DNA of 64,000 nt from NCBI RefSeq assembly GCF_963678975.1, contig NC_089274.1, positions 50,104,900-50,168,899 of the forward strand, given 5' to 3'. Below are positions 5,376 through 58,976 of the stretch, piece after piece. Source of the DNA: Dysidea avara (Eukaryota; Porifera; Demospongiae; Dictyoceratida; Dysideidae). The notes below the pieces were generated by a model. The model was given only the letters and a program-made list of their open reading frames with translations. It had not been told where the DNA came from and did not search any database. The position numbers were made by a program, and so were the translations under genes. Positions within the stretch are counted from its first letter, which is position 1. Each line of letters opens with the position of its first letter.

Positions 5376-6154
5376 CTTTATACACATTCAGTGTCAAAGT
5401 ACGGACTGCAATACGGACCATGCTCTCATGATGATTAAAAAACTTTATGGCTTCAGTATAAAGGGGGAAATCCCTTAAATGCTATTATAGTAGAGCAGTG
5501 AAGGCATGCCCCTTCTCTTCCCCTCACTCACCTCATTATAGAAGAAGTGTATGGTATGGCTGTTCAACTTGAAGGAGAGTGTCTTGAGGAATGAGATATA
5601 ATAAGCCAATATCTCTTCATCGGAGAAGTCAAACTTGTGGACAATTATGGAGTTAATGTGGTTATTTGACAAGAGGTAATCTATGAGGGGTGTGGTTACT
5701 ATAGCTGTCATTGCACACTATATACTTACATAGCGACGTCTCGTTTCTAATGTTTTCATACAGGATATTGAGTGTTTGCAGCAACTGGACGCAGACAAAT
5801 TTGCCACATCTTTGTGATAATATACGCAGGAAGAAACTTTGCATGTTCTTCTCCAGGAAGTAGCTGGCAAAACACTCACATTGTTTACTGGACACATAGA
5901 CAACACTTACTCAAATACAGACGTATCATTCTGGTCTCCCCATATCAATATTTCTGCTATTGAACGAAACGTCTCCACTATCATAGGTCTATTTACTTCA
6001 GTGACCTGATTGGTTCGCGACAATACCGTATAATGGTACCTACATCACGTGTGCAATGACAGTTCATCTCGTTTAGTTTATCTCACTTTAACTGCTCGAG
6101 TGACGGAGCCTTCTTCTTGGGCCGCCATTGTTCCTGTAGCCAACTCTTCCACAT
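5376..6154 (-). CDS. CLEC16A: CLEC16A (Ema/GOP-1) N-terminal exons, partial
   Basis: CLEC16A is a conserved membrane-associated protein of late endosomes that acts in endolysosomal traffic and mitophagy. Exons on the minus strand are 6154-6087, 6039-5911, 5863-5730, 5680-5532 and 5481-5376, with introns of about 47-51 bp and all phases matching. The protein starts [10 protein letters not shown] and continues through the FPL domain. Recognisable blocks are [52 protein letters not shown] and [10 protein letters not shown], all close to the human protein. The start is the only ATG placed where the family begins. The last exon ends in a GTACGT donor in phase 1, but no following CLEC16A exon was found in the remaining 5.3 kb. 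Either a very long intron runs off the window or the gene is truncated. Confidence 0.93.
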
Positions 6155-6251
6155 CTCGTTGAAGACCTAGTGGGCAGTGGGCACTATTTAAGGATAAGAA
6201 TTAATTAATGTCATAATTACACAGCGACGGATAAAATAATACGGTGCGCCA
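6155..6251. promoter_or_regulatory. Shared CLEC16A/SMURF promoter
   Basis: The 97 bp between the two divergent start codons must hold both 5' leaders and core promoters unless there are distal untranslated exons. It contains a TATTTAAGG word and AT-rich sequence. No TATA box was assigned to either side with confidence. Confidence 0.7.
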
Positions 6252-19253
<13,002 letters not shown>

Positions 19254-19287: not shown

Positions 19288-22081
19288 TTATAGACCTGGC
19301 AGTGGAACACGATTGTCTCTAGCCCACTTTTTAATTGCCATAATGATGAACTCAGCTTGTGAGTTAGCTGTGTTCCTTAATATCTGCATTACCTCCTTAA
19401 GGCTCTCCCTGTAATGGATCACATGATCTACAAGCAAAAGATCATGTGATGCTACTCACTTGGGTTCATGTCCGGCAATGACTAGTTGAAACACACCCAC
19501 ACATGCCCCTCGTTTACCCTCCCAATATTCAGGGTTAGGATCTAGTCTTTCCAATATGTCAAATGCTCTAGCTGCGTAATAGAATTGACCCATCTTATAG
19601 CAATCATTGGCTATCAAATTGAGAAGTGAAAATGAGTCAGCTGAAGTGTCCATCTTGAGGTAGAGCTCCCAGGCATGTTGAGGTTTACGATTCATGATAT
19701 CTAGTATAACCAGTAATATCTGAATAGTGGCCACATGTGGCTTACTTACAGCATCTGGCTAGCCAGCTGATATACACATAATCAGTCTTGACTTTATCAG
19801 AACTGATAAGCAGAAACATCTAAAGGGGGAGGGGCTGGTGGTGGTGTACTGCAGAATAACTGGACCAACCTCTTCAGCTTCCTGGAAATTGCCTGTGACA
19901 GCTTTGGCTTGGGCATAGTTGAAATTGAAGTTGTCATCATTGAAGAAATAGCTCTATAATATGAAGTTGCAATAAGCCTTGATGGCAGTGATACCAACAC
20001 ATGCTATAGTCTAATGAACTATTTGGTGAAATCTCTCCAAATTATGGATCCACAATAAAAAACTTCAAATAAGGACATGGTTAGGTCTCTACGCTTTCAC
20101 CTCTAAAGAGGACAACCTCTGTTGGTCCCAAAGTGTCCATTAGGCCAAACCAAAGATTTTCTAAAATGAAGTAGGTGGGAGGCTATTTTTCATAATTCGT
20201 TATAACACTATGCTTATACAATACACATCTGCTTAATTGTGACACTTCCATTAACTATTGTGGTGATACCTTCACAGAGTTCAGATAGATGAGGACATCT
20301 TCAAATTGTTTTAGTAGGAAGAAACAAGAAGCCATACATTGTCGTCCAGGAATAGTGTCTATATACATGACATAGACTTAATGCAGTTGTCATGGTTACT
20401 AACCGCACTCAGCTCCTGAGCTACCAACTAACTGATAATACTGTTGAGCTAGTTTGAGATTATCTCTCTAATAGGGTTAGGGTAGTAACACAATAATATA
20501 ATAACAGCTTACTGAGTTCCTCTCTTGTCCAATGACTGCATTAGCTATAGCTTTAAGGATATACTCTTGAGCTGATGTTGGCTCTACATCTTTAATCAGT
20601 TCATAAGCCACTTCATTATCCCCTGTAGCATGTATGTCATACCAGCTGACTAGTAGGGATTACCCCTCACCTTGCCTCAGGTAATAAATCACCTGTTATG
20701 AAAACATTACCCCAGTGTTTAGTATATTATTACTGTACTTACTAAGTTTAGCCGAGCTTCAGGAATTATGTCTAGTAGTCGAGGGAGCACTTGTAAGGCT
20801 CCTTCACCATTTGAGAAGATCACCTGATTCAAGTAACATGCTACTTTGCATTGTGATTGGTTATAATACCTTGTTGTGCTGTAGGAGGTCATGTGCAAAA
20901 TGGAACGAGCTAGAACAGGTATCCTGCAGCACTTTGAGCTCCGCCTACCAGTGATCATGTGATCATCATGACATCATGAATGATTGGTTACCTCAGCAGC
21001 CTTGCCGTTATACAGCTTGTAATAGTTACAAGCTTTTAAGTTGATAGCTATCACACTGTCTGGGTTGTGTTGTACATAACCTGATAACACCTCCTGCATA
21101 ATAAAGGGGTGTGGCTAGCTGCAGAGGAGCTGCAGGCTCACCTGAGACACATCATAATAGTCTAGCTTGTGATAGCACATGGCCAGGTAGACATTTAGTG
21201 CTAACAAGTCCCTATAATAATTCAAACACTCACCACTAGCCACACCTCATTAATATATCACCTGTTCTCCAGTAATAGTTTACGGTAAATATCAATGGCT
21301 TCTTGATAGTGAGTACGTAGATAATGAATAGCAGCTAAGCTCAGCTAGATGTTGGTGGTATACATGATGGGTTGAGTAGAACTTAATAATCACCTGATCC
21401 TCTAATATATTCTGTAGCTGATGGTGATATCCCATGAGACGTTTCTCATCATTAAACTATATTGATAACTGTACTATTAACTGAATTACATTGGTCAATA
21501 CCTTATGTGCTAAGTGGAACTGTAACCTGTTCTGAAGGTGACTGGGTGGAGCTGTGACCATCATGTGAACACTATCACCATAGCAACACATTTTACCTTT
21601 TTGTGCTGTCTGGTCAGCTTCTTGATACATACCCAACATGAAGTAGCAACAAGCTAGGTTGATCCATACTTCTGCACTGCAAGACTCACTCTTTGTCAAC
21701 CGTTCATACTCCTATAACAGAATAGATTATGTCGCCTTTGTGTTATATATATTTGCCTCTCTAGCTCGCTGGTATTCTCCCAAATGGAAGGCACAATAAG
21801 CTATCCACTGACCAGCTACTTCTGGCGCCTTGCCGCTGTTACACTGAAACTGCAGTAGTAGCTGATTTTAATGAGCTTAGCGCATCACCCTACTTACCTC
21901 TAACAGGGTAATGGCGCCTGTGTAGTCACGACCTTGCAGAAATTCGTCTAGTTTCGGAACTTTCTTTTTCTTCTTTTCTTTGTTTGGCAATGCCTCGTTG
22001 CCACTAGCAGGTTTGGCCCTGGACAGAATCTAAACAGAACGCCATAACACTAGCAAATAACATACTTCTAGTTCTCACCAT
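19288..22081 (-). CDS. IFT56: Intraflagellar transport protein 56 (TTC26)
   Basis: IFT56 is a TPR subunit of the IFT-B train that carries cargo into cilia. There are 19 coding exons: 22081-22079 (ATG only), 22029-21898, 21849-21757, 21711-21597, 21551-21502, 21456-21394, 21344-21262, 21211-21142, 21093-20992, 20944-20870, 20823-20743, 20692-20671, 20622-20513, 20467-20404, 20358-20270, 19953-19870, 19819-19750, 19700-19460 and 19408-19288. They give 555 aa, against 554 in human. Diagnostic blocks are MILSRAKP, the lysine-rich [93 protein letters not shown] and [17 protein letters not shown]. Intron 3 (21756-21712) begins GC rather than GT. The gene converges on SMURF and diverges from the NHR gene. 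Confidence 0.97.
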
Positions 22082-22202
22082 TTGTTTTTGTTGTTTAATA
22101 ACGTTGCCAAGAGGCGGTGATTCTATTTAATGTCCACTATGGATCAGCATGATATATATTATCCTTAGATGGTGAAATGTTCCTAACTGGCTACACAGGA
22201 AA
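22082..22202. promoter_or_regulatory. Shared IFT56/NHR promoter with X-box-like site
   Basis: The divergent start codons are 121 bp apart. At 22103-22115 the minus strand reads GCCTCTTGGCAAC, which fits the RFX X-box consensus (RYYNYY, 1-3 nt, RRNRAC) with a 1-nt spacer, about 22 bp upstream of the IFT56 ATG. RFX control of IFT genes is known in animals. Function here is inferred. Confidence 0.5.
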
Positions 22203-22796
22203 ATGTTTAACCATTGTGAAGGATCAGATTTTCAGTTAGGGGAAGTAGTTACGTTTGGCTATTCTAAAGTGTGCGCATCACAGATGGAAGTTACTGATGA
22301 CGGATTATCTGCCAACAAAAAGGACCCCGCTCAATTTTACGCGCATGGCGTAGTGTATGGTGACAAGCCACTTAAAGGTGTTGCGGAATTTGAAGTGGAG
22401 ATAATTCGTTATGGTAGCGGATGGTCGGGAACTGTTAAACTAGGAGTAGTGAAAATTGCTGAGGATAAGGAGATGACAGTTAATGACGTACCCAGGTATT
22501 CTCCAGACGCACCAGGGTACTGTGTATGGTGTGCAGATAAGTTGCACAATAACTTGAATAATGGACCAGTAGAAACACCGTATGGTGGCCACAATCTTGA
22601 CAGCTTAAGAGAAGGCAGTCGGGTTGGCTTAAGACTAGAAAGAAATGGAGATTTGTCATTCCTAGTAGATGGATTATCACAAGGGATAGCCTGTAGAAAT
22701 ATTGCAAGTAAAGGTCACAAATTATTTGTGGTTGTAGATCATTACGCTAATTGTATTGAGACCAGGATCACAAGATCTGGTAAGTGTATCAGCTAG
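22203..22796 (+). CDS. Neuralized-homology-repeat (NHR) protein
   Basis: NHR domains of Neuralized and NEURL proteins bind protein partners, often in ubiquitin ligase complexes. The single open exon encodes 197 aa starting MFNHCEGSDF. Residues about 20-190 form one NHR domain: AHGVVYGDKPL, WSGTVKLGVV, then SRVGLRLERNGDLSFLVDG, GIACRNI and LFVVVDHYANC. No RING or SOCS box is present. A good donor (G|GTAAGTG) lies at 22779/22780, so the last residues (KCIS) may come from intron read-through and real 3' exons may exist. I could not identify any in the following 8 kb. The preceding ATG at 22171 hits a stop at once, so 22203 is the preferred start. Confidence 0.8.
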   Translation: MFNHCEGSDFQLGEVVTFGYSKVCASQMEVTDDGLSANKKDPAQFYAHGVVYGDKPLKGVAEFEVEIIRYGSGWSGTVKLGVVKIAEDKEMTVNDVPRYSPDAPGYCVWCADKLHNNLNNGPVETPYGGHNLDSLREGSRVGLRLERNGDLSFLVDGLSQGIACRNIASKGHKLFVVVDHYANCIETRITRSGKCIS

Positions 22797-31502: not shown

Positions 31503-32240
31503 ATGGCGGTGAGTACCCATGTGTTTTTGTATCCTTGTAATCTTAAGCTGTGAAATGTCCTTGTTAGTTGTTGTTAGTATTATTGAAGATGTTGAGTTAA
31601 TTTGTTGTGTTCTGTAGAGTGCAGACGAAAAGGCTAATCCTATGAGAGAATTGTGCATTAGAAAATTATGTCTCAACATTTGTGTCGGTGAAAGTGGCGA
31701 TAGGTTGACTAGAGCTGCGAAGGTATTAGAAGAGTTAACGGAGCAGTCACCAGTGTTTTCTAAAGGTATAACCTTGCTTCTAGTGTACTCAATACCCTTA
31801 TTGTGTATAGCACGGTTCACTGTACGATCGTTTGGTATTCGGCGAAATGAAAAAATTGCCGTACACTGCACTGTAAGGGGCCCCAAGGCTGAGGAGATTC
31901 TGGAGAGAGGTTTGAAAGTGAAAGAATACGAGCTAAGAAGGGGAAACTTCTCAGACACGGGTAACTTTGGGTTTGGAATACAAGAGCACATTGATTTAGG
32001 CATTAAGTACAACCCAAGTATTGGAATATATGGGATGGACTTCTATATTGTACTGGGTCGACCAGGGTACAACGTTGCTTATCGAAGGAGAAAGAAGGGT
32101 CGGATTGGTCACCAACACAAGGTCACTAAGGAAGAAGCAATGAAATGGTTCCAGCAAAAGGTATGATTGCTACCCTGCTGGTTATTAATTGATAATGTCA
32201 TTCCTTCTAGTACGAGGGAATCATCCTGCCTGGAAAGTGA
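31503..32240 (+). CDS. RPL11: 60S ribosomal protein L11 (uL5)
   Basis: RPL11 is a large-subunit protein that binds 5S rRNA with RPL5 and, in vertebrates, MDM2. Exons are 31503-31508 (ATG GCG), 31618-31765, 31811-32160 and 32211-32240. They give 177 aa against 178 in human, and conservation is very high: [71 protein letters not shown] and [14 protein letters not shown]. Intron 2 (31766-31810) is only 45 bp, lacks stops and keeps frame, so the unspliced sequence also reads through with 15 extra hydrophobic residues. The protein match shows it is an intron. The stop is 61 bp from the DRC3 stop on the other strand. Confidence 0.98.
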
Positions 32241-34846: not shown

Positions 34847-34877
<31 letters not shown>

Positions 34878-36540
34878 GGACAGGCTCATTTAAATTGGTT
34901 GGTTTAGAGATCTAGGTGATTTTTAAAAAATTTTAAACACAGTAATCACTGGCTTAGTAAATGGTTGAAAGAAATGGAAAGTTTTTTGAATCCACCATAT
35001 AGTTCATATAAAATCTTGATTACCTAAGATCATGAGGTGATTGATGATACTAGGTCATCACATAAAGGATATTGATTTTGAACATTCTCAATGAATACAG
35101 TCACCATCTCAGTGTAGTTCCTCTCAAACTCTTTGTTAATCTCCTAAATTCAACATATTGAAAATCACCTATTACAACACACAAGCAACTCACATCAAGC
35201 TGCTCTACTAATGTCATTTCAAGTTTCATGAGATTGTGTTTCAGCCCATCCACAACAGGGTTAAGTTGAGCAATAGCCTTCTCCATATCACCTGCTAATA
35301 TCAACTGTTGTTTGGTGTCCTCATATTGTTGAATCAGTGCAACAGCTTCCTGTTGATTGTATGTCTTGGCTTGTGAGTGAGATGTGAAAATGGCATCTCG
35401 CTCTTTATCCCACAACTCTTTCTCTTTCAGTCCGCTGACCCTCAAGTCTTCACAGATAGCAGCAAACTTCTCCTGGTACCTACAAGCTATGACATGATAA
35501 CAAAATCAAGTAGTACATCTATTACTGTTGTAGCATTTCCTCAACGCCTGACAAGTGTTGGAGACGTGGGGCTTCAGTGTCCTCTTTAAACAACACCTCA
35601 AACAAGGAGTTCCCTTCTAGCCCATCAACATAAGCTGCCTACTTCATAATGATGCAAGTCACACTCTCAATTTATCCTTTACCTTGCGTAGTTCTTCCTT
35701 CTGTCTCAGAGCCTCTTGTTCTGCAGCCTTCCTCTCAGCACTTCTCTCTTGTAATTCCAGTCCTTCAATCAAATCCTGAAACTGCTCTTGAGCTGCTTTA
35801 CGCTGCAGAGTAAGAAGTAACAAGCGAGTGAGTGATTACTAACTACTCACCGCTTCATCTGATACAAGTCGATAGTCAAAATACACCAGTGCTGGCAAGT
35901 GAGCTAATAAAAATGGTTGATAATTGGCGTGGCTGGCTACAGGATTGCCTGAAAGTGTAACTGCTTTGAGCATTGAGAATGTACGCAGGTAACTAAGTTG
36001 GTCCAAATCTTCAATCAGGTTATTTCCAATTGACAACACCTCCAGTGGTAAGTCATCCATTTTGTCCAGCACTTTAATGTGGTTATGAGCGAGGCTGAGA
36101 TCCTTCAGTCGTACAAGACTGGACAATCCCTCAATCATTTCAATGTTATTAAATGATAAATCTGTGCATATGTGATAAGGGGAAAGTCCCTTGTATGCTC
36201 ATTAATACTTACCCAACCACACAAGATTAGTAAGCGCCTCTAATCCTTCAATTCTCTCTATTATGTTATTGTCTAATTGTAGTTTAGTTAAGTTCTCTAC
36301 GCACCACAAATTTTCCATACGAAGAATATCTGTAGTACACTATAATTGGACAGTTGCCATGGTGATACAATAATCCATACTTTTGTAACTCAGCCTTAGC
36401 TCAAGGACTTCTTTGAAGTCAATTCCCTCGCTTTTAGCTATCCTTCCCGCCTCTCCATCTGGGCCTTGTTCTTCAATACACTGATGTAACAGAGCTTCGT
36501 CAATAACCGATGGCTCGATTGTGTCGTATAGCCTGCTCAT
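32302..36540 (-). CDS. DRC3: Dynein regulatory complex subunit 3 (LRRC48)
   Basis: DRC3 is part of the nexin-dynein regulatory complex that links outer doublets in motile axonemes. Exons are 36540-36381, 36329-36213, 36161-35851, 35802-35683, 35638-35526, 35479-35194, 35143-35051, 32923-32810, 32759-32682 and 32457-32302. They give 515 aa against 523 in human. N-terminal leucine-rich repeats run from about 50 to 190 ([49 protein letters not shown]) and end in an LRR cap ([17 protein letters not shown]). Coiled coil follows, with [34 protein letters not shown] and [18 protein letters not shown]. The start chosen ([11 protein letters not shown]) fits the family; an in-frame ATG nine codons upstream (36567) is possible. 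The exon 7/8 junction across the 2.1 kb intron is the least certain. Confidence 0.94.
34225..34545. mobile_element. TIR element in DRC3 intron 7
   Basis: Ends share TAAGAGTTTATAATAT and GGGAGAGTATC as imperfect inverted repeats. Inside is a small perfect hairpin at 34406-34441 (15-bp stem AATCAATGCCTTTCC). Related end fragments occur near 29262-29290. Confidence 0.5.
34840..34880. repeat. (GT)n then (G)n microsatellite
   Basis: About ten GT units run directly into about 20 G. It lies in DRC3 intron 7. Confidence 0.95.
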
Positions 36541-36595
36541 GACGTCACCAAGTGCTCGTGTGACCACACTGGGATTGGCTTCACCACGCTCCGCG
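36541..36595. promoter_or_regulatory. Shared DRC3/sialidase promoter
   Basis: Only 55 bp separate the divergent start codons. A CRE-like TGACGTCA spans the DRC3 start (near 36539-36546) and an inverted CCAAT box (ATTGGCT) is near 36574-36580. No perfect X-box was found here, but an X-box palindrome (GTTGCCATGGTGAT) lies in DRC3 intron 1 at 36353-36366. Confidence 0.5.
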
Positions 36596-38538
36596 ATGTT
36601 GTCCTTGTCAGTGAGCTGCGTGTTGGTGGGATTAATAGCTCAGGGATCATCCTACGACGGTACTGCACACTTCTTTAGCAACACACGATATTAAATTTTG
36701 TAGGAGTGATCCGGCCCACTGATGATGGAAGACTTGAAGCGTACATGATTCCCCCTAAAAAGTCCAACCACGCATCATTTTTGGAGCGATTAGAGTCGGG
36801 CAATTTTGTAATGGCGTGGTTTAGTGGTACGAATGAAGGAGCCAGCAATTGTTCCATAGCAGTGGCCCACCTCAACGCGAGCAGTAACCAGTGGTCTGCT
36901 GGTAAGGTGGTCTCATGGAGGATAGGCTACTCCAACCAGAACCCTGTACTATTTCAAGACAATAGTAATGGAGTACTTCACTTGTTCCACTCCCAACAAC
37001 CAGCCAGTGGTCTACAGAAGGTATGGTGTACAGAGCTGGAGTTCAAGTTTGCGGAATGTTTGCAACAAAACTGTAAACTAGCATAAACCTACTAAAACTT
37101 TGATGGGTCACATTTCTGGTGTCTTCCTGTATTGCATAGATTCCGCAATTCTTTAAATAAGGCAGCTGGGTTATGTGTGTGATGTCACTATAGGTGTGCA
37201 GTGAGGAGCATGCCCAGGTATGGGAGCTAACTGATACCAGTGGAACTGGGTATAACTGGTCCAAGCCTCAACTGCTCTTCTCAAAATATGGCTCATTTGA
37301 TCGGAACAGAATCATCCTATCCTTATCAGGAGCATGGCTATTTCCAATGTACTATGCAGGTATACCGGCCACGTGAAGTTTTATAGTTATTTTCTCATTC
37401 TGGTTCTCACCATATATTTGGTACCATTGGTGACTAGATGGTGTAACTAGTTAGTGCAGCCTAAGAAAGTTCAGACTGCATTTTTGAGACAATTAATGTC
37501 TGCTTGCCCACTTTGCTATATTAATGGATGAGAATTTAACAGAGGTTATCCATTTATGTCATTTTAAGTTAGTAACGGTTACTAGACACATGTCATTGAA
37601 GCAAAAAGCTATGGAGCTCGTGCAAGAAAATAAACTTTTTGTGATTATGCACAACTGAAGAAAGACTTGATGGGGGGGGAGGGGGGGTTGCTACACTGAA
37701 TGAGTTACTAGCCAATGAGTGGGAATAAAGAGGACTGGGTTAATTCTGTGGTATAAGCCAATGGGCAGCTGGAGCTTAATGGCCCTGTTTCTTCCAGCTG
37801 CAAAATGATACTAAGCAACAAATCGCATAACAAAATTAATGCACTGTAGCTTTCTTGTTTTCACTAGTGTTCTTCGGCTTGTAACTCACTCTTGCATGCC
37901 TCATGCATTCATGAAGATAACCTGTAATTACGGATAGTATTTACTGTGACATCAAATGGATAACTTCTATAAGTAAGTATGTGTGTTAGAGCTATATGTG
38001 GTTAGGTGGGTCTTCATCGGACCAACATTCCATCTTACATGTAAGCCACGATCATGGCAAGAGTTGGGATGAACAAGAATACAAAGACTCTGGTCATCTT
38101 GTTCAGCCAAGTGTAATCCGACCAAAACCTGATGTGAAGTATTTGATGACGTATTTCAGAGATCGTAAAGCAGAATGGATATATCAAACTACATCAACTG
38201 ATGAAGGAGAAAAGTGGACATCTCCTAGCAAGACTAAACTACCTAACAACAATTCTGGTATTCAGGCTACAGTACTGGACAGTGGCAATATTGCAGTAGT
38301 TTATAACCCAACCAATCATGACCGTTACCCACTTCGTATTTCTTTATCAGAGGATGAAGGCAAAACTTGGAAGTATTCACGTGATTTGGAGACTGGTAAT
38401 TCTGGAAATGAGTTTAGCTACCCAACTCTACTACAATCACCAGACGGGTTTATACATGTGTCGTATACTTACAACCGAGACACGATCAAATATGCCAAGT
38501 TCAAGGAGGATTGGGTTAAGGCAGGATCAAATATTTAG
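36596..38538 (+). CDS. Secreted sialidase-like (BNR/Asp-box) protein
   Basis: It belongs to the six-bladed propeller sialidase-like group with Asp boxes (BNR_2 type). Exons are 36596-36659, 36704-37020, 37194-37359 and 38006-38538, giving 359 aa. The first exon encodes a signal-peptide-like start (MLSLSVSCVLVGLIAQG). Three Asp boxes (S-x-D-x-G-x-x-W) are clear: SHDHGKSW, STDEGEKW and SEDEGKTW. Other family blocks are MAWFSGTNEG, NPVLFQD, GAWLFPMYYAGG, LVQPSVIRP and GFIHVSYTYNRDTIKYA. Exon 4 is joined at GTTAG|GTGGG because only that junction keeps phase and matches the family. Substrate and catalysis are unproven. The nearest relatives I recall are bacterial, fungal and plant, so lateral origin is possible. 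Confidence 0.85.
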
Positions 38539-45130: not shown

Positions 45131-45139
45131 CTCTGTCTT

Positions 45140-46460: not shown

Positions 46461-49273
46461 TTATTTCTGAACTTGTTTGGCTTGTTCCAGTTTTTTCCTT
46501 AGTCCATCACAAGTTAAGATTAGTGATGAGTGCCTATTTTGTAGTTCCTTCAACTGCACTTGTAACATATCATTCTATTGGATATGGCCATCATAAATAT
46601 AAGGTTAATTACAGTATAGTATAGGGCTACTTTTGAGGGGAGAAATTGTCATGTTTCAGTTTCACAACAGACATTCTGCAACTTCTGATAATGAATTTTT
46701 TATTGCTAGCTAGCCACTACCAGTGTTGGGGGGTAACAGTAACACGTTACATAATAATTATTACTTTTGTGGTAACGAAGTAATATAATGAAATATGCTG
46801 TAAAAACAGGTATTATAACTCAGTTACTTGCAAATGTAACACGTTACCTAAGTAATGAAGTTACTATAATGAGTCTAATATTACGTAATATTATTACTTT
46901 AAGTAACGAAGTTACTAATCTCGTTAGTAATCCACTGAGTAACACCTAGCCACTACGAAGTAACGAAGCCTACTGAATGAAACTTATTCACCAGCTTCTT
47001 GCTTATAGCCAAGATATGCACATTGTCCAACAACGCAATCACGTCACGTGATAAAGTGGTAGTTTCACACGTGACAGCTTAAAGATGTGGACACAAACTA
47101 ATATTATATGTAATATTATTATAGTTACTATATGGGTAATATGTAACTGTAATTAGTTGTAAATACTATGTAACGAGTTACATTAAAAAGTAACTATCCC
47201 AACACTGGCCACTACACAGTGACGCTGTCATTGGTAGTTAGCATTTTCATGAATGTGTTACCCTTGTGTGATATTGGTCATTCATGAAAGCTGTTTTACC
47301 CCTCAATAATAACCCCCTAATTACCTGGTCTCTTCTCTCCTCAAAATCTCTTAATAAAGTACTATGGCTGACCAAGCCTCCTTTGTGTCGTAATGAGTTA
47401 TTGTCTATACGAAGGGCATCTCTTGCTTGCTTAGTCCGAGTAAGGAGGTCCCTTTTCTGTGCTACAACTACTTCAATTTGCTTCAATCTATCCTTTTTAC
47501 CACAATTGTCAACTTGAACAAATTGTAGTTTCTGCTTAAGATGTGTGAGTACTTGGACAGCAGTAGTAATCTTCTTCTTCAGTTTAATGATATCCTATTA
47601 TCACCTGATATAATTATAATGATGATATATATTGACTTACTTCGTTACGTTCTTCTATCTTCTCATTAAGATTGACATTGTCTATTTTGAGTTGTTCAAA
47701 GTCAATCATATGAAGACCTTCAGCTAGTTCTTCCTACACTGACTATGTTATCAACTGAACTAACACGATAATGTTACCTTCTGTTTAAGTTGAGTCTCAC
47801 ACTTCTGCACTCTATACTGTAACTTAATATTGTCCAGTCTCACCTAATAATACACTGATGTACAGCAACTACTGGTTGGCACTTACAGCTATTAGCTCCA
47901 GTTCTTTCTTCTTCTGTATAGCCTCGAGTTGCTCCATGTCCTGTCACTATAACATAATAACTGTTCAGTTGAGTAGTAACTTACCTGTTTGTTTAATCTC
48001 TTACCAGTCCTACTATTAATGGCTGTACAAGACTTGTCAATCTTGCACAGTTTACATTCCTCACTATGATATAAAATAACAGATTAAATATTGTTATAAT
48101 AATGGGGTCACACTTACTAAGCTTGTTCTACTAAAGCTTGTTTAGTTGAACACTGCTCACTAAGCTCATTTTCTTGCTCTTGATAATCAGCCAATACTGA
48201 TGAGTACTTCTTCTGTAGACTTTCCAGCTCATCTACAAGTCAAGTACATAATAAGCAATGAAGATAATTTATTGCCATACTGAGGCACTTCAAGTAGCGC
48301 TGCTCTTGATCACCAAATGATTTGCTATTGGCATCCAGTTTATCATCTACCTGTATTACCAGTAGTGCAGATGACAGCAGTAACACTTAGTACCTTTTTG
48401 CAGGCCAAGTATTCTGCTAGCTTGTGTTGAAGATGTTGGTTCTGAGTCCTGAGCTTTTCCTGCTCAGCTAGGGCGTCGCGACAACGAGAAACTATTTCAT
48501 CTCGATCCAACACTTCTTCCTCAATTATCTCCTCTAACTGAGTACTGCTGGCCTCCTCAACTAATAGAACAGTTCATTACAGTTTATCAAACACTACCTA
48601 CCTGCAGTGATAGAAGGTTGTAGTGTTGGATCATTTGTTAGTATTTCATCTTGAACAGTTGGTAAATCTGAAATGAAGTCCACTGGCTCTGTAATAGCTT
48701 CTTCAACAATAGTTGGTCCATTTGTATTGCCCTGCTCGACTGCTTCTTGCACAACTATTGTTGGTGACTGTACATTGGCTGCTTCTTGATTGCCACCAGA
48801 TGAATCAGTTGATTGTTGTTTATCCACTGTCATCTCTTGATCAGTAATAACAGTTACATCATTGGTCAACCCTTGATCGTCACCTGTTGCAATGTCTCGT
48901 GCATTATCAGCTGAGTCTTGTACTTCTGTTGGTGTGTCTATAGTGTCCTGTATGGCTCCATTATCTACTGTTGTATCTTGTGAGTCTTGTATGGCCACAT
49001 CTGTATTGGTTGTTTCACTAGTCTGTTGTACATTAACTGGTGTGTCACTTTCTACAGATATAGTAGCTACGTCAATATGAGGAGCTATTTCAATAGGAGG
49101 AACTTCCGTAGTCTCTTGAGATGCGGCCTCAGTTAGATCACGTGCTGTCACATCTTCTGAATCTTGTGTCGCTACTGGTACTTGCTAAGTGAAGCACACG
49201 TGTACTAGTAAACTACAAGAATCTACTTCTTTATTATTCACAAATACCTATGATGACTTACCTCTTCCGCCAT
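46461..49273 (-). CDS. CFAP184: Cilia/flagella protein 184 (CCDC96)
   Basis: CCDC96/CFAP184 is an axonemal coiled-coil protein that works with CCDC113 near the radial spokes and the dynein regulatory complex. Exons are 49273-49262 (MAEE), 49184-48602, 48560-48394, 48350-48281, 48232-48118, 48063-47985, 47940-47887, 47843-47778, 47733-47641, 47594-47325 and 46553-46461. They give 533 aa. Residues 5-198 are acidic, Thr/Gln-rich and low in order; the rest is coiled coil. Family signatures are GLHMIDFEQLKIDNVNLNEK, IEERNE, VAQKRDLLTRTKQARDALRI, LLRDFEERRDQ and the tail RHSSLILTCDGLRKKLEQAK. The last intron (47324-46554) holds a complete hAT element. Confidence 0.93.
46713..47216. mobile_element. 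Non-autonomous hAT element with 8-bp TSD
   Basis: The element at 46721-47208 (488 bp) starts CAGTGTTGGGGGGTAAC and ends GTAACTATCCCAACACTG. It is flanked by an exact 8-bp duplication GCCACTAC (46713-46720 and 47209-47216). CAGTGTTGGG ends with an 8-bp TSD fit hAT transposons of animals. The interior is made of GTAAC/GTTAC words with no transposase. It sits in the last intron of CFAP184. Confidence 0.85.
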
Positions 49274-49349
49274 ATCGTATAAAGTTTCGGTGGTTTCTAT
49301 GACAACTAGGTAAGTGCATGTGATTTGTTCATCGAGGCGGGAAGTACGA
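49274..49349. promoter_or_regulatory. Shared CFAP184/TK1 promoter: X-box plus E2F
   Basis: The divergent start codons are 76 bp apart. GTTTCTATGACAAC at 49293-49306 fits the RFX X-box consensus and is about 20 bp from the CFAP184 ATG. GGCGGGAA at 49336-49343 fits an E2F site and is 6 bp from the TK1 ATG. A second E2F-type word, TTTTCCCGCC, is at 49513-49522 in TK1 intron 2. Function is inferred from the known regulation of ciliary and S-phase genes. Confidence 0.55.
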
Positions 49350-52300
49350 ATGGCGGCAATAATTCAGAGACTTGGTGGTGGTCATATCCAGGTAACGCTA
49401 ATGGTAGTTGTCTAGTAACAAAGTCTGTTTTTTTTTTCTAGGTTATCTTGGGACCAATGTTCTCTGGGAAAACGTAAGTGGCGCGTGTTTCGCATTATCA
49501 GTGATTTGAAAATTTTCCCGCCAGGACGGAGTTGGTGCGGAGAATAAAAAGATTTCAAGTAGCCAATCATGCCTGCCTTATGATCAAATACAGTAAAGAT
49601 GACCGTTACGATAAGACCGGAATATCTACACACGACCATCAAGTAACTTCAGCCTTCGCGTGTTCTCAGTTACAAGAAGCAAAGGATAAGGCTAAACAAT
49701 ATGGCGTAATTGGAATTGACGAGGGACAATTTGTGAGTGCTAATGGCTCTGTATTAGTGGCCCATGTGCTTGCCAGTTCCCTGATATAGTGGACTTTTGT
49801 GAAGAAATGGCCAACGATGGCAAGACTGTTATTGTAGCTGCACTTGATGGAACATTCCAAAGAAAGGTTTGTATCATACACTCAGACAGTAACCGATATA
49901 TTGGTTATAGGCATTCAACTCAATATTACACTTGGTCCCACTGGCGGAAACTGTTCTCAAGCTTCAAGCAGTTTGTATGATATGTTATGGAGAAGCAGCT
50001 TTTACCAAGAGGATTAGTGCTGAGACTGAAGTGAGTGTGGACCAATGGTTTATTTGTGTAGAGGTTATTATTGCCTGATGTTGTGAAGTAGAGAAGCAAC
50101 ACTGCAGGAAATTAGCCCAAACTGTTTTGGTGTCCTACACTAGTATCCCTATTGATATTATTGGCATCATCAAGGCTATGTTGTTCTGATATCACTCAGT
50201 TATTGTGACAGGTGCCAAGTAGGGACATTAGACCAGAGGAGCGTGATCATTTTTACAAGTATAGGATTAGCCCATTCATGTTAACAATAGTAATGGCTAC
50301 TGATCCAAATTTTACCAAGTAGTAGTTGCCCTCGTATTAGCATGGGTGATTGGTCATCCACTGTGTGCTATTAGCCTGCGTTTGCCATGGTATATTCGGC
50401 AGAAACCCGACTTGCTCTGATTTAATTTTTATTCTCAGCATTATCTGTGGTGTCCAAGGAATGGATCACCCAAAGTTTCATTCTTTAGCGCTAGACAGTA
50501 GGAAGAGAAAGAAAATCGATTTGTACAGCGACTATACTGAAAAATAAATTACAGGCGCTGACATTTGCAGCCATAACTTCCATTTGCATTAGTCTGCAAT
50601 GTTGGAATTTTGCTTAAAATGTTAGCAAATCAGCCAAGGTATAGTGTTAGCCCTGTAGTCACTTATCATACAGTACGATAGCATTGTATAGTAGGGACCA
50701 CAAAGGAACAGTTCTTGATTCATACTGCTGCGTAACAAGTTGAACATAGTTGATAACAAAGGGTAATGAATACTTTACTTTTCAGATGATAATTGATATA
50801 ACTGGGTTGCATGGTGCCATTTCGTTCTTTTGATGCGGTATGCGTGGGTTCACCAGTCAAAATGATTATTATTTACAAAAAGTTAAACAAGTATACAAAA
50901 AAAAATTTGGAATTTTCAACTAGAATAGGGACCATAGCACATCGATAAAAGTCCAGTAGGAATATAACACTTCTTATTGTTTTACTGTCATGCACTACTC
51001 CAGCTTGTTTCAGTACTTTTTATCGATGTGCTATGGTCCCTAATCTAGTCGAAATTTTTTTGTGTATGGGTATGAAGGTGGTGTAGTTGAAGAAAAGACA
51101 ATGATCTTGTTTATGTTTATTGCAAACACATGTGACATCTATACTGTTGGGGTTACAGAAACGAAACAAGAACTCTCCATGAGCAGGCGAATAAGATGGT
51201 GTATAGTTTTTAATCGATTTGAGTCTTCCTTCTGTGAGCCCAATAAAAACTTGTGTATTTTTTTTTCTTTGTAGCATGTGTAATTTAGATTTTAAATTTT
51301 TTTTAAATTTTGGTTTTCTCGATATGCATGCTTGTGTGAACAAGTCAGGTTTTTGCTGTGACGGTCACAGGATATATCAGTTGTATCACATGCTTTGCCT
51401 GATATGTGCATCGGGGCTTAGCTGAGCTTGGCTGTACATATCAGACAAATCACTTGGGCTCATAATACAATTACAACATGTGTGTGGTAAGCTTTGCTGT
51501 AGAGTGGTTACCTTGTGTTATTTGAAAAGTGGGTGTGGTCCATATTTTTAAAATGCTGTGAAGTGTTGGGAGTATGGAAAACCCGGAATGCCGGAACAAC
51601 CCGGATCAGTGTTATTTTTGCAATTGGATCACGTGCAAGTACTACCGTGTTTTTCAGGTTTCTTGCGAAAATCATAGCATAAACGTGATCAAACACGTGA
51701 TCTGTAATTCAAATATCTCGAACTTGCAAGGCATTTAAAGTAAATATTCGCACCTTTTGCCGATCATTGTACACGTTCAAGTATTGCTAGTATGCTGCAA
51801 GTTATGTAAGCCTTGTTAGTTTGAAGCACGGATCACGTGTGTGATCACGTTAATGCTTTGATTTTTGCCAGAAACCTGAAAAACACGGTATAGCATACCA
51901 CAGATTATAAAGATTCCATTGTGGAATAAACAAAATTTGTCTGCTAATATGTTCTATTATCCTTACTTGTAACAACTCTAAAGGATTCACCACGAAGAAA
52001 CGTGAGAGTGAGCATTAATTGGGATACGCATAAAATCATTAATCTTAGAACAATCATTGGCTTTCTCAGCCAAAACTTTATCTTAGCATTCCTAGTATAC
52101 AATTGCTACAATTCCAAGACATAGTTTTGCTACGCTTACACAAACTAGCTAGCCTACTCGTGGTCAGTGACCGAATTTATTAGAATCACGCTTACAGGTA
52201 CATCATGTATTGTGAGACAGTGCCATGTGGCGAGTTAGCATAGTACTAGCTAGAAGTTGGTTTTTAAATCCTTTAGTTAAAGGTATGGAGTGTAGCTGAG

Positions 52301-55146
52301 ATAGTGATGATGCAGTTCCATCCATCCCAATTAACGCTCGCTCTCCTGTTGATTTATCGTGTAGCTACCCTGTAGAGTTGTTACATGAAGTAAGGATTAT
52401 ACAGAGCATATTAGCATACAAATTTTGTTTATTCCATGATGGAGTATTTATAATCTGTGGTATGCGCAAAAATAACACTGATCTGGGTTGTTCCGGGTCT
52501 TCCATACTCCCGTGAAGTGTTTGTCAATAGGCTATAACACTAGTTCTTAGCTTAAACTAACGTTTCTCAACTCAGGATAGCAAGGGTGACAAATTGCCTC
52601 CATCTAAATGCTGCAGGATGCATGCATGGTTTTCATGTAAGCAATAATAAAATCCCACAATCAATTTTGGTCTGACTTTGGTATTGATACTTTTGGTATT
52701 ATATTGTCCATCCCTAAACATCACACTGTATTCACAGGATACCATCTACAATTAAACAGTCTCCATCTCCATTTGTAGTGTTCTCCATCCTTGTTATCAG
52801 TGAGTTTATTGTGTGACAATGTTTCTATATTACTGAGGTTCCATGGTGATATGTAACTGAACGGACTTTTAATGAACAGACTTTTAATCAATGTGTAGTT
52901 GTAGGCTATAAGAATTAAAACATGCATTTCCCAAAAGTTATTTATGGGTTTAAGGGTTAACTGTTATAGAGAACTATCAACTTGAGGTATACACAAGACA
53001 CAAAACAATTAGAGTAGTCTGAAAGATTATCCTCGTTAGAATAGGCCATTTGTGCCTGTGTTGCACCAATGGATAAAAATTTTTGATTACTCAATAAGCA
53101 TATTTCTGTGACTTGTCTGCTTATGTCAGCAGAATGTAGCAAGAATGTTCACTGTTGCCAATCACTTCATGTCTATAAACAAATCCAGTGGTTCTAGTCA
53201 TACTGGTTGGCTATTAGCCTAGAATGGCTAGGTTGACTGGTTTTACTGGCCAGATTGACCATGTAAATTGACCCAAAGGGTCAACCCTGCAAATAGAATG
53301 ATTGGTTGGCCTGGCACACACTAATGTGCCACATGCAGTTCTATAACTACTTTATAACTGTGGCCTGTTGGAAGCATTCTGTATGGCTATTACAGAACCC
53401 TTTTTTGCTTTGATCCTCCCACAAGATTTTTATTTATATACTGAGAAGAGTGTATACCCCTATAGAAGGGCTTATTGTGTAGTCATTATGCGTTTCTCAT
53501 TGAACTATAAGCATGGATTCATGGATTTAGCAAAGGTATTTCTTGCGCCATTCAGAGTTTTGCATGTGTGAAACAGTGCTAACAATTTTAACACTTATAT
53601 AGTTTATCACAAACCGCAACACCTTGTTACATCATCACTACGTAGTCTCACATGGCCAGACCACTTTTTTGTCTTTGTCATTAGGTAGGGAGAAAAAAAG
53701 GGTCTGGTCCAGTTTGTATCCCACACTAGTCTTGACACTACCCAGATAATTGGGCAGTGTTAACCAAAGAAATATGATGCATTTCCAAAAAGTATTTGTT
53801 CTCATCTATATATGCATCACAGCATCTGTGAATCACGAGCGTGCATTTACAGACTAATCAGTGTATAAAGCTGTTTTGGCATTTACCAATGATTGAATCA
53901 GTACATGTCTTATATTGATTCATAGCTAAGTGGAATCTTTTGGTGTACTATGGTAGTTTTATTATAGTGGAGTTTAAGGTTACGGGATACTGTAAACCCC
54001 ACATGTACACTATCGATCATTTTTCATGATTAGGGGTTTGATTTTTCTTAATGCATTGTTATCAAATATTTATGCATTCTTAACTTCTCATAAATCGACA
54101 TGGAATTCAAATGTTGTTATGGAAACATGAGTTGTCCCCATGTCAAACAGTGAAAACTGTGAACCAAAAATCAGACCAATGAAGAACCATGAGAACTTAC
54201 TAACAATTCTAAGGTTTGAAGAACATCACTTGTGAGGGACTGACAAGAGGATTTGTGAATAATGTGCATAGTTGCTGAAATATGACTACAATATGGCCTA
54301 AAGCAAGACACTGTGGTCACAAAATTAATTTTTAAATTGATATCACAAGCACTAGAAACATTATTTCTAACAAATGGCTCCTTCAGGACCTAGACAAGAA
54401 GCCAGACTAGTAGTCTGTTTATACAAAATGTTAACAACTAGTTTGACAGTCCTGATTTTTGGTTCAGGAAAATATCGCCATTAGTCAGCAAAACTAGGCA
54501 TGCGCTTACAGGTGCACCAGTTGCTAAGTGTGTTGTTTCTATGTTATCTTGTACTGTTACGTGTGTTTTCTTGTACCTTGTAACTGTCCAGTCAGCACGC
54601 TATTATTCTCCCAACAATTTAAGCCTGTTACCAGCTGATACAAAACACAACACCAAGCCGCCTTAATTACATAATAAAATTTTTGTTTGACTCACTATCC
54701 CGTAACCTTAAGTGCATGGAGCCATAAATACTGCATACTTGTTATGTAACCAAATGACGTGTCAAGATGATTGTGGGAATCGAACTGGACCAGACCCTTT
54801 TTTCTCCCTACCCAATGACAAAAAGCGGTCTGGCCACATGAGACTAACTACAGACCTTCAGCACTTGTGCTGTAAAGCCTTAATAAATAATCACTACAAT
54901 GGTATATGAGATTAGCCTCAGTACATAACCTGCAAAGTGGCTTCTCCAAACCCCATGGCTTATGTGCATACATCTTGTCTTGTGTAGGTTGAAGTGATTG
55001 GAGGAAGTGACAAATATATGGCAGTGTGTCGATCATGCTACAACCTGCCAGCAGGAGCCAGCACTACTGACCTTACCCCAACAAGAAATGTCACATCAAG
55101 AAGTGGTGGGGGCAGACAATTGATATTTCCTGAAAATGAACAATAA
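49350..55146 (+). CDS. TK1: Thymidine kinase, cytosolic (TK1)
   Basis: TK1 phosphorylates thymidine with ATP in the dTMP salvage pathway. Exons are 49350-49391, 49442-49473, 49525-49732, 49777-49866, 49911-50030 and 54988-55146, giving 216 aa. The P-loop GPMFSGKT is at residues 18-25, and IGIDEGQF carries the catalytic Glu (about residue 91). Further blocks are [13 protein letters not shown] and [19 protein letters not shown]. The two CxxC zinc pairs are CMIC and CRSC, and [10 protein letters not shown] belongs to the substrate-binding loop. The C-terminal tail (after [10 protein letters not shown]) has no KEN degradation motif, unlike human TK1. The last intron is 4957 bp and packed with transposons. 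The stop is 1 bp from the MPG stop. Confidence 0.96.
50885..51067. mobile_element. Foldback MITE, family B copy
   Basis: Inverted arms with AACAAGTATAC, AATAGGGACCATAGCACATC and CCAGCTTGTTTCAGTAC, related to 14143-14363. It lies in TK1 intron 5. Confidence 0.75.
51558..52521. mobile_element. MULE-like foldback element with nested MITE
   Basis: The outer element at 51568-52511 begins GGGAGTATGGAAAACCCGG and ends CTTCCATACTCCC. It is flanked by an exact 10-bp duplication GTGAAGTGTT (51558-51567 and 52512-52521). Long inner arms (about 51892-52025 and 52315-52466) are also inverted copies. The left arm is interrupted by a second inverted-repeat unit (51643-51890) with ends TACCGTGTTTTTCAGGTTTC. 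GGG-type ends with 9-11 bp TSDs fit Mutator-like elements. No transposase frame was found. Confidence 0.75.
53643..54846. mobile_element. TIR element, ~1.2 kb, in TK1 intron 5
   Basis: Inverted ends of about 85 bp begin TAGTCTCACATGGCCAGACC and contain GTAGGGAGAAAAAAAGGGTC and TGGTCCAGTT; the right copy ends at 54846. A 65-codon frame in the right arm is not a gene. The superfamily was not assigned. Confidence 0.65.
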
Positions 55147-55147
55147 T

Positions 55148-55831
55148 TTATTTGTTATGTGTTTGTATACGTGTTTTATGTTTACTAACAGCCCAAGAGT
55201 CTTTCACAAAGAATCGCAGAAGTTTGGATGACCACTCTGGTCCAGCATAATCCACCCCAATTCTACTACTACTCAAGATTTCAACTGTACAGGTTGGTTG
55301 GTCTTGTTCTAACCAAATTTCATCACTTGAAGTCAAGTCAACTTTATTAAACTCTTTTGTAATGTTCAGTGCTTTACACAAGTTCCCAGGACCTTTACAC
55401 AGTTCGTGATCTTTTCCAGCAACTTTTCCTCTCAATGTTCTCATCAATTCTACCCCGTTCACTGGTTCTAGTGCTCGAATTAACACTGCAGCGCCTTCCC
55501 CTCTGCTAGAAATGTTCACACAATTATGCACGCCATATATAGAGTAAACGTAACAAGTTCCTGGACACATGAACATTGCCTCGTTACGGGAGGTTTTCTT
55601 CCCTTCATAAGAATGAGCCGCTTTGTCCACTCCTCCCAAGTATGCTTCTGTTTCCACAATCTTTCCCTTTATAAGGCTTCCGCTGTGCTCCCTTACCAAA
55701 ACAGTGCCCAGTAACGCGATGGCCAGGTCTTTGCACGGCTGGTCGAAGAATTTTCTGTCTAACTTTTTAGGTGTAAGTTTTGACCTCTTCGAATCTACTG
55801 CTATTTCCGATTCTGATTTCCTTTTTGACAT
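55148..55831 (-). CDS. MPG: DNA-3-methyladenine glycosylase (AAG/MPG)
   Basis: MPG starts base excision repair by releasing alkylated and deaminated purines. One intronless frame of 227 aa starts MSKRKSESEI with a basic, NLS-like head (KRK, KRSK). Core motifs match the family: FFDQP, GKIVETEAYLG with catalytic Glu62 and intercalating Tyr64, AAHS (His73), RNEAMFMCPGTCYVYSIYG, CVNISSRGEGAAVLIRALEP (Asn106, Arg119) and ELCKGPGNLCKAL. Length is shorter than human (298) because the N-terminus is shorter. All neighbours have introns, so an intronless gene is unusual here. It converges on TK1 (1 bp between stops) and diverges from ATG12. Confidence 0.96.
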   Translation of the reverse strand: MSKRKSESEIAVDSKRSKLTPKKLDRKFFDQPCKDLAIALLGTVLVREHSGSLIKGKIVETEAYLGGVDKAAHSYEGKKTSRNEAMFMCPGTCYVYSIYGVHNCVNISSRGEGAAVLIRALEPVNGVELMRTLRGKVAGKDHELCKGPGNLCKALNITKEFNKVDLTSSDEIWLEQDQPTCTVEILSSSRIGVDYAGPEWSSKLLRFFVKDSWAVSKHKTRIQTHNK

Positions 55832-55897
55832 GATCTGTAGGATTCTATTAATAGGCGCGCTTTACGATAACGCACCCTGCGCTTATCAATATTCAGG
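55832..55897. promoter_or_regulatory. Shared MPG/ATG12 promoter
   Basis: 66 bp separate the divergent start codons. A GGCGCGCTTT word (near 55853-55862) resembles an E2F-type half site. No TATA box was assigned. Confidence 0.5.
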
Positions 55898-56341
55898 ATG
55901 GCTGAAACTTCTAAAGACCCATCAGCCGCAGATAAAGGTTAGGATTGACAAACTTACTAAAAATGTTACTGGCTTGACAGTGAAGGTGACGCTGCGCCAG
56001 ACCGGCAACACTCCCGCGCTCAAAAACAAGACATTTTGGGTCCAGCGTAGCCAAACAGTTCGTTGGGTAGTAGAATTTATAAAGCAGCAATTAATGTGTG
56101 AGCCGCACGAATCCTTGGTGAGTGACTGAAATAGCATTTTAAATGGTATTCCATAATGTCATGTAGTTCGTGTATGTGCAACAAGCATTCGCGCCCGCAC
56201 TAGATCAGGACATCAACACACTGTACGAGGTGAGCAGCGTATAGTGAGTGTTAATGGACATATATGTAATTGTTATTGTAGTGTTATGGAGCCAATGATA
56301 AACTGATATTGAACTATTGTAAAACTCCTGCATGGGGATGA
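55898..56341 (+). CDS. ATG12: Ubiquitin-like autophagy protein ATG12
   Basis: ATG12 is joined through its C-terminal Gly to ATG5 by ATG7 and ATG10, forming the E3-like unit for LC3 lipidation. Exons are 55898-55937, 55981-56117, 56167-56229 and 56282-56341, giving 99 aa. The protein starts MAETSKDPSAADK and continues with the ubiquitin-like fold: VKVTLRQTGNTPALK, FWVQRSQTVRWVVEFIKQ, FVYVQQAFAPALDQDINTLY and CYGANDK, ending LILNYCKTPAWG. The final Gly needed for conjugation is present. The N-terminal tail is much shorter than in human (140 aa). The stop is 5 bp from the CFAP52 stop. Confidence 0.96.
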
Positions 56342-56346
56342 TGTTA

Positions 56347-58976
56347 TTATTGTATGTTGGGCAGTTTCCATCTCAATATTCCACCATCAGCACTGACAGT
56401 GACCACATGTTTACCATCAGGAGCAATGTGTAGTTTAGTAATGTTGCCACTGTGGCCCACTCCAACATGGGTCACTTTTCCTTCATTGTATAACCATAAC
56501 TGCAGCAGAAGGAGATGTATAGTTAGTCCATACTAGGGGTTACTAACCTTTACAATTCTGTCGTCTCCTCCAGTGACCATGTGCATGCCATCTGGGGTGA
56601 TATCCATACCATTAATACTGCCAGTTTTTGAGCCATCAAGTTCCCTGATCTGGCTACCATCATGTGTCTCCCAATATCCAATCTGGAGCAGACGGTGTTG
56701 TAACAAGGTTTAATGGCACACATACCTTTCTGTCTGTGCCCCCAGTGATAATCTGACATTCATCTGGCCGGTAGCATACTGCTCGGAACAGTGTATTAGC
56801 AAATATCACCTGGTTACGTACAAATCTCCTGTTAGTGTGACCTAGTTTAGTACAATTTCACTATAGCATACACTAACACTAGGTCCCAGATGATACAGGT
56901 ACCATCACTACTTGCACTGACACATTCTTGATCATTATGTCGTACCTTGATACAAGTTACTGCACCTGTAACATAAACACTATGTACCACAATAAAGGGT
57001 AAATGTAGCCAATACCTTTGTGCTCCTTCATGGCTTCCTTCATTGTCTGTAGTTGAGAGGATACCTCCCATACTCTTACCTGTCCTTCCCCTCCTCCACT
57101 AATAATCCTCTTGGAGTCTGATGTGATAGCAATAGCAGTCACTCCCTATTGTGGTATGCTATTATTGGTCCCCACTAACACATACTGTATACCTTATTGT
57201 GAGCATTCTGTATCGTGTACATTAACCTGCCACTTTCTGGGTAGAATGATCTGATCTTGCCATCTTCCCAACCTAATGGTAATTACTAGTTATACAGTTC
57301 AGAGTAGATTACTGACCAGATACGATGGCCTTCCCATTAGGCAGGAAGTGTAGAGTATGACAGAGCATGTTAGGTACTGTTATGCGTAGTAATTCTTTAC
57401 TAGTACTGGCATGCCACACTCTGATATCTCCACAACTACTAGTGGCAAATAATTCTGAAGAGCCTCTGTATGAACAGTATCATCATCAACCTGGTCACTA
57501 TGCTGGTCACTATAACTCACTTAGGGAATACAACATCTGTAATGATGCCACTGTGACAGGCAGTCACTAGAGTGGACTTGAAACTGGTGAAGTCAAACTG
57601 ATAAATGTGTGACAGATCAGTACCAACAAAGAACTGTTAATGGAACTTACAACATCAACCCTTCATCTTATCAGCTTACCTGGTGGCCACTTCCTCTAAG
57701 TGCCAGTGATGTGACCTTACCAGACACTTTACTTGATCTAATAATGTTATTATGTACAATATACTGAAGGGGAGAGGCTCACTTTATTGTCTTGAATCCC
57801 TTGCAGGTCACCACTGCTACACTACCATTCCCAGTAGCCAGTAACATATCACCTATATGACACCTGTTAACAACCAACCAACTACACAGTACATGGTTAC
57901 CTGTTGACAATAGTTTGAGAGTAGTCACACCCTGACTGAATTTCTGTTTCTGTGGTCCAAAATCTCTGAACAACTTAGTGCTAATATTGATCTAACAAGA
58001 ACTGATGTCATTTCCATGGACTGACTATAGCTCACTTGTAATACGTCACCACTGGTTGTACCACAATACATGTACTGGTCATCTTCGGTCATCTAATGAG
58101 GTACCCTCATAAAGTGACGCACGTTGAGTGACTTCCTTACTTGTACACATTTAAATATTCTTCTTAGTTGACCAAGATTACAATCAGTTGGTCTAATCTT
58201 TCTGTTCACCTCATCAATTTCCCACACCCTCAGTGTGTGACTACAACAAAGGATCACCTGATAACAATGATTAGGGGTAGTTGATAACTTACTCTCCACC
58301 AGTTACAAACAAGTAATCTGTTTGGTTGGCAAATGCAATAGCATAAGCTGGTCCAGCACTCTGCATAGTAGCTGGACTACCACACAAAGCATCTCCAGTT
58401 GACAAGTTCCATATCACAACACTTCCATCATCATGACCACCAAGTGTCACTAGAAACTTGTCATTTGGAGAGAAGGCAAGTGCCTGCACCTTCACTTTGT
58501 GTAACGTTAAGCGATACAGCAGTTGTTTAACTTCATAGTCCCACACTATCACATCAGCCTAGTTACCATGGACACACGTTATAGATGTGCTTACCCAAAG
58601 TACCCCTTGGGGTTAATAAACAAGAATCAAGGAGCTACTTACTAACAATATGAAACTGAAGACAAATACCTTAAAACCCATGTGAGTGATTTGACCAGAC
58701 GCTAAATAACGACCCGAAGAGGAACGCGCTACACAAGATATCACTCCGGTGTGGCCTCTTAAGAACGTTTGCTGTTTATTAACGATGTTCTCTACAACTA
58801 GCGTGCAGCCCAACGGATAGACCAAACTGGTACCGTCTTGATGAATCAACACGCCGTTCGGAACGTCTCCTGTAAATTCATAGTAAATCAGTAATACATA
58901 CAAAGCTAGTAACTATATTACCTGCAAATCCTATAGTGGATTGTAGCTCGAGTTTGTCTGCTGCGTCATCCGCCAT
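56347..58976 (-). CDS. CFAP52: Cilia/flagella protein 52 (WDR16)
   Basis: CFAP52 is a WD-repeat microtubule inner protein of axonemal doublets. There are 16 exons: 58976-58922, 58869-58670, 58558-58293, 58240-58141, 58092-58036, 57991-57901, 57852-57783, 57737-57680, 57633-57521, 57465-57317, 57272-57193, 57145-57016, 56965-56878, 56828-56726, 56682-56548 and 56499-56347. They give 615 aa against 620 in human. Blocks include GGHDDGSVVIWNLSTGDALC, HTLRVWEIDEVNRKIRPTDC, GWEDGKIRSFYPESGRLMY, RIISGGGEGQVRVWEV, SSDGTCIIWDLV and HVGVGHSGNITKL. Two propeller-type WD arrays span most of the length. All junction phases match. Confidence 0.97.

Follow-up and report, generated by a model that had tools for sequence, protein, structure and literature searches.

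The window, which is the whole 64-kb stretch of DNA that was analysed, contained the following genes, given here from left to right.

6087..6154, minus strand: first coding exon of CLEC16A as in the original prediction; the gene runs on leftward, with an upstream exon possible and the FPL domain in later exons
6252..19253, plus strand: SMURF-type E3 ligase (C2, WW, HECT), start to stop; exon structure at about 8.8-16.9 kb uncertain
19288..22081, minus strand: IFT56, stop to start, with only the ATG in exon 1
22203..22779, plus strand: first coding exon of a Neuralized-domain (NHR) gene; 3' end provisional
about 30.3-31.0 kb, plus strand: putative candidate gene between NHR and RPL11
31503..32240, plus strand: RPL11 (Pfam Ribosomal_L5 and L5_C), absent from the original prediction
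32302..36540, minus strand: DRC3, stop to start
36596..38538, plus strand: sialidase-like gene (BNR_2) from start to stop, with uncertain exons in the middle
46461..49273, minus strand: CFAP184 (CCDC96); 3' end taken from a rough gene model
49350..55146, plus strand: TK1 from start to stop, with a last intron of about 5 kb
55148..55831, minus strand: MPG, one coding exon
55898..56341, plus strand: ATG12, start to stop
56347..58976, minus strand: CFAP52, from stop to start, for which no divergent partner was found
about 59880-60371, minus strand: NPRL3 (HTH domain, E 1.8e-11; GATOR1 chains, E 8.8e-09)

The expected Pfam families were matched by all ten genes that lie in head-to-head pairs: FPL in CLEC16A, C2, WW and HECT in the SMURF-type ligase, TPR in IFT56, Neuralized in the NHR gene, LRR in DRC3, BNR_2 in the sialidase, the CCDC113/CCDC96 coiled coil in CFAP184, thymidine kinase in TK1, and the MPG and APG12 families in MPG and ATG12. 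The FPL protein is presumed to be CLEC16A and the C2-WW-HECT protein to be SMURF, and CCDC96 is taken to be the same protein as CFAP184. Three of the ten were compared with PDB sequences, and their best matches bear the names IFT56, DRC3 and CCDC96; the best matches of CFAP52 and NPRL3 likewise carry those names. A possible WBP2-like gene had no match in Pfam or PDB. The members of each pair fall into unrelated Pfam families, in agreement with the original prediction that partners are unrelated in function.

The models of a self-trained gene finder served as a guide only, and exons were accepted by homology or by eye. Splicing of IFT56 yields MILSRAKPA from its ATG-only first exon, and the sialidase leader was joined across a 44-bp intron; the start of this gene looks like a signal peptide by eye. 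Introns are very short: 23 of the 33 gaps below 400 bp between consecutive listed exons measure 41-53 bp. Among 126 stop-free stretches of at least 54 aa, a scan that would miss short exons, three Pfam families, NPR3 among them, gave a single match apiece at E up to 0.01; matches to CEBP_ZZ and IFT52_central occurred among these stretches, and neither was found in the seven stretches rechecked. Rfam gave no matches at gathering scores, relatives of CFAP52 were absent from the genome and viral contigs searched, and relatives of IFT56 from the viral contigs. Further genes could hide at 1-4, 8.8-16.9, 22.8-30.3, 38.5-46.5, 50-55 and 60-64 kb. Two tandem repeats are open on both strands, one of 36 bp in 53 copies with 98% matches at 40826-42735 (more than 650 codons open on each strand) and one of 18 bp in 27 copies at 25516-25999.

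All five pairs consist of opposite-strand neighbours with starts facing away from each other, and the five predicted distances between start codons (97, 121, 55, 76 and 66 bp) proved exact when read in the sequence and recomputed. These figures separate start codons, not transcription starts. The spacers are as follows.

6155..6251, 97 bp: CLEC16A/SMURF, starts 6154 (minus) and 6252 (plus); 5 CpG, observed/expected (o/e) 1.32
22082..22202, 121 bp: IFT56/NHR, starts 22081 (minus) and 22203 (plus); 2 CpG, o/e 0.54; RFX half-site within
36541..36595, 55 bp: DRC3/sialidase, starts 36540 (minus) and 36596 (plus); 5 CpG, o/e 0.96
49274..49349, 76 bp: CFAP184/TK1, starts 49273 (minus) and 49350 (plus); 5 CpG, o/e 1.73; RFX half-site and E2F-like site within
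55832..55897, 66 bp: MPG/ATG12, starts 55831 (minus) and 55898 (plus); 5 CpG, o/e 1.57

The pairs had been described as a chain ending at 58976. The gaps stand, but the chain is interrupted by RPL11 and possibly a second plus-strand gene between NHR and DRC3, and position 58976 is the start of CFAP52, for which no divergent partner was found and which is followed by NPRL3 on the same strand. An unbroken alternation of genes is thereby ruled out. The order is CLEC16A (minus), SMURF (plus), IFT56 (minus), NHR (plus), the candidate gene (plus), RPL11 (plus), DRC3 (minus), sialidase (plus), CFAP184 (minus), TK1 (plus), MPG (minus), ATG12 (plus), CFAP52 (minus) and NPRL3 (minus), giving 13 junctions of which five are divergent, five convergent and three same-strand.

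Small gaps occur at both ends of the genes. Four of the five convergent stop-to-stop gaps are tight (SMURF/IFT56 34 bp, RPL11/DRC3 61 bp, TK1/MPG 1 bp, ATG12/CFAP52 5 bp), so that six genes (SMURF, IFT56, DRC3, TK1, MPG and ATG12) are packed against their neighbours at both start and end; the fifth, sialidase/CFAP184, spans about 8 kb according to the gene models. Polyadenylation hexamers were uninformative. No AATAAA begins within 600 nt past the stop codon in eight of nine genes examined; by eye, an AATAAA overlaps the stop codon of MPG itself. In Amphimedon queenslandica, 22.3% of junctions are head to head, 21.0% tail to tail and 56.8% head to tail (PMC4773876, Table 2). At that rate, finding five divergent junctions among 13 is unremarkable (P = 0.14), and the same table counts 3,427 non-overlapping head-to-head regions shorter than 1 kb. 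These figures, together with four of five convergent gaps being as small as or smaller than the divergent ones, favour the reading that compaction put the genes head to head by chance and that the layout has no regulatory meaning, to which we give an even chance and which is compatible with two core promoters lying in each gap. Strand switches speak against it, as they occur at 10 of 13 junctions (P = 0.015 at the Amphimedon rate, 0.046 against one half), or at 10 of 12 when the candidate gene is left out (P = 0.006 and 0.019), but the window was chosen by the earlier reader for its pattern, which flatters all of these junction P values, and Amphimedon may be the wrong comparison.

The gaps resemble promoter DNA in their CpG content. 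Pooled, they hold 22 CpG in 415 bp against 6.4 expected, a 3.4-fold enrichment that was reached 8 times in 100,000 random placements and 9 times in 100,000 draws matched for GC, and the o/e of the whole window is 0.42. Taken singly in GC-matched draws, three of the five gaps fall below 0.05 (CLEC16A/SMURF 0.041, CFAP184/TK1 0.027, MPG/ATG12 0.024); the value for DRC3/sialidase, 0.072, comes from 125 matched windows only, and IFT56/NHR shows no enrichment (0.42). The same is true of the four tight tail-to-tail junctions, which contain 1, 2, 1 and 0 CpG (o/e 0-0.44) when 50 bp of flank is counted on each side. Across 12 starts, CpG density peaks at 5.3 per 100 bp in the 100 bp directly upstream, stays at about 3-4.5 per 100 bp from -400 to +300 and drops to about 1 beyond 500 bp. 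This profile fits unmethylated promoter DNA, and shared promoter DNA is likely. A CpG rise at starts has also been reported for Amphimedon (PMC4773876).

Whether both leaders must fit in each gap, as originally predicted, is less certain. The motif ATGGCGG occurs six times in the window on either strand, and four of these are the start codons of RPL11, CFAP184, TK1 and CFAP52, that is, four of 12 confirmed start codons, the other eight being without it. The fifth copy lies in CLEC16A exon 1. The sixth (15538), judged by eye, falls within an inverted-end repeat that probably derives from a transposon. The full TISU consensus is unmatched at the four starts. ATGGCGG at these start codons is like the TISU element described in PMC2518114, where the genes studied have a median leader of 12 nt, and a YY1/Kozak-like motif about 10 bp past the start site is reported for Amphimedon (PMC4773876). 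Short leaders would allow two core promoters within 55-121 bp; we infer this step, because ATGGCGG marks the starts of only two of the ten paired genes (CFAP184 and TK1) and the CLEC16A start codon has a strong splice acceptor 12 nt upstream of it. That acceptor scores 8.8, above the upper quartile (7.5) of 38 true acceptors, so the CLEC16A leader may begin outside the gap, in an upstream leader exon.

Some transcription starts might lie elsewhere, with untranslated 5' exons joined just 5' of the ATG, promoters outside the gaps and leaders that may overlap the partner gene. Weaker acceptor candidates were found upstream of CFAP52 (7.4), ATG12 (6.2), CFAP184 (5.9) and others, but an acceptor at or above the lower quartile of true ones turns up in about 50% of 90-bp stretches taken at random, so CLEC16A alone stands out, and the CpG peak directly upstream of the start codons also runs against this arrangement, which we consider doubtful.

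Candidate activator sites were observed beside several starts.

22103..22109, plus strand: RFX half-site GTTGCCA, 22 bp before the IFT56 start codon
36540..36547, no strand assigned: TGACGTCA, overlapping the DRC3 start; sole copy in the window
49300..49306, minus strand: RFX half-site GTTGTCA, 27 bp before the CFAP184 start codon and 44 bp away from that of TK1
49337..49343, plus strand: E2F-like GCGGGAA, which begins 13 bp before the TK1 start codon
58988..59001, plus strand: X-box GTTGCCACAGCAAC, 12 bp before the CFAP52 start codon; highest-scoring of 361 X-box-like sites

Four ciliary genes (IFT56, DRC3, CFAP184 and CFAP52) lie within 40 kb (19288-58976), all on the minus strand. With the half-site consensus GTTGYCA, as given in PMC10530576, a site was found at most 50 bp upstream of the start in three of them (IFT56, CFAP184 and CFAP52), 12-27 bp away. 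The background is 2.0% of 50-bp windows and the nominal P for three of four ciliary starts is 3e-5, in a test chosen partly after the sites had been seen by eye; the whole window holds 29 copies against 24 expected from a first-order model. Relative to other starts the enrichment is weak: three of four ciliary against one of nine non-ciliary starts gives a Fisher P of 0.052, or 0.018 with TK1 left out, the nine including the candidate plus-strand gene, whose start was placed a few bases off. TK1 counts at 50 bp only through the CFAP184 site, as does NHR at 100 bp through the IFT56 site. The DRC3 gap contains no RFX half-site; the nearest is 187 bp downstream in DRC3 intron 1, and the X-box-like site in that intron was rejected as a clear promoter site since it sits 187 bp into the gene and introns of this window contain similar palindromes.

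Scores for the full X-box averaged over the four ciliary starts exceeded those of random windows (P = 0.0028), driven by CFAP52 and CFAP184, the IFT56 and DRC3 starts being unremarkable. An exact full X-box is present at one of the four genes, CFAP52, and the other two of the three copies in the window lie away from known starts. Palindromes of this type are commoner than expected across the window (26 against 12.3), as is a looser form (103 against 46, many inside a tandem repeat). Such palindromes, for example GTTACCATGGCAAT, cluster at 7127-7942 in the early part of the SMURF gene and may be a repeat there. RFX/X-box control of ciliary genes is described for animals and choanoflagellates (PMC10530576; PMC2873420), and the half-sites near ciliary starts here are like that system, but two of the three candidate sites here lie in a gap common to a non-ciliary gene. 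Literature searches on RFX sites, whether in sponges or in shared promoters, did not show this combination among the matches listed.

GCGGGAA, which we take to be an E2F-type site, occurs with its complement four times in the 64 kb, two of them at TK1 (the copy just upstream and a TTCCCGC in intron 2), and TK1 is an E2F target elsewhere. The TGACGTCA at the DRC3 start is presumably a CRE. In their exact forms, the GC-box GGGCGG (two copies in the window) and the G-box CACGTG (21 copies) are both absent from the five gaps extended by 40 bp on either side. Among the motifs scanned, the CFAP184/TK1 gap is the only one with a candidate activator site toward each partner, an RFX half-site and an E2F-like site; these two different sites, in the best-marked gap, argue for separate inputs.

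This bears on the proposal that each gap is one bidirectional promoter whose partners are coupled by layout rather than by pathway. The gaps of 55-121 bp speak for it, and their promoter-like CpG content agrees with promoter DNA lying there; the different sites toward CFAP184 and TK1 speak against coupling. Published work falls on both sides. Genes of head-to-head pairs tend to be co-expressed and to have common factors (PMC4089025), and neighbouring genes in human cells, bidirectional pairs included, are often co-expressed and rarely functionally related (PMC5572396), but the latter coupling is buffered at the protein level, and in a plant the two genes on either side of a 351-bp gap are expressed from it in a mutually exclusive manner (PMC2772851). 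The exact GGGCGG missing from the five gaps is, moreover, the commonest promoter motif of Amphimedon (PMC4773876). Coupling through a single promoter is unlikely in our judgement.

The five gaps are probably minimal divergent promoter regions of an ordinary kind in a compact animal genome, with partner-specific sites and regulation that is not necessarily common. Each gap would contain two back-to-back core promoters that share a short stretch, in most cases rich in CpG, and fire away from each other. Gap size, CpG and start codons are observed, and the short leaders, the transcription starts and open chromatin would be located in the same stretch. Activator sites beside each start would set a gene-specific programme, presumably through binding at the RFX sites of ciliary genes and at the E2F-like site of TK1. 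The partners would have open chromatin in common, and basal or noise-level expression may then be common too, while regulation need not be.

The layout itself is already known from a compact sponge genome, since head-to-head packing and bidirectional promoters have been published for Amphimedon queenslandica (PMC4773876). The likeness extends to the compact genome, the short divergent distances, the CpG rise at starts and the YY1/Kozak-like start motif. The locus differs from Amphimedon in that the exact GC-box and CACGTG are missing from its five gaps, and the RFX and E2F-like sites present here are not named as enriched in the sections of PMC4773876 consulted. One short gap between head-to-head genes is also the setting of the Arabidopsis region with exclusive tissue expression (PMC2772851), which differs in being 351 bp long, from a plant and reporter-tested.

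Elsewhere in the window, MPG (55148-55831) and NPRL3 (about 59880-60371) are separated by about 4 kb, which ATG12 and CFAP52 occupy, and no globin was matched among the 126 stop-free stretches scanned. We take NPRL3 to be the gene also called c16orf35. In jawed vertebrates, MPG and c16orf35 are conserved globin-flanking genes (PMC2975663). A literature search on the TK1/AFMID pairing found no paper. The human partners are AFMID for TK1 and AP3S1 for ATG12.

Ciliary and S-phase programmes are usually active in opposite cell states, and, if the animal is a sponge, its flagellated choanocytes are said to divide. It is conceivable, but very unlikely, that the 76-bp gap joins these opposed programmes, with the RFX site driving the motile-cilium gene CFAP184 and the E2F-type site about 30 bp away driving the S-phase gene TK1; if so, this promoter DNA would be a two-way switch or a link of division with ciliation. 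With candidate sites of two programmes in 76 bp, the CFAP184/TK1 gap is a small, concrete case in which to ask whether head-to-head neighbours in compact animal genomes are coupled to or insulated from each other.
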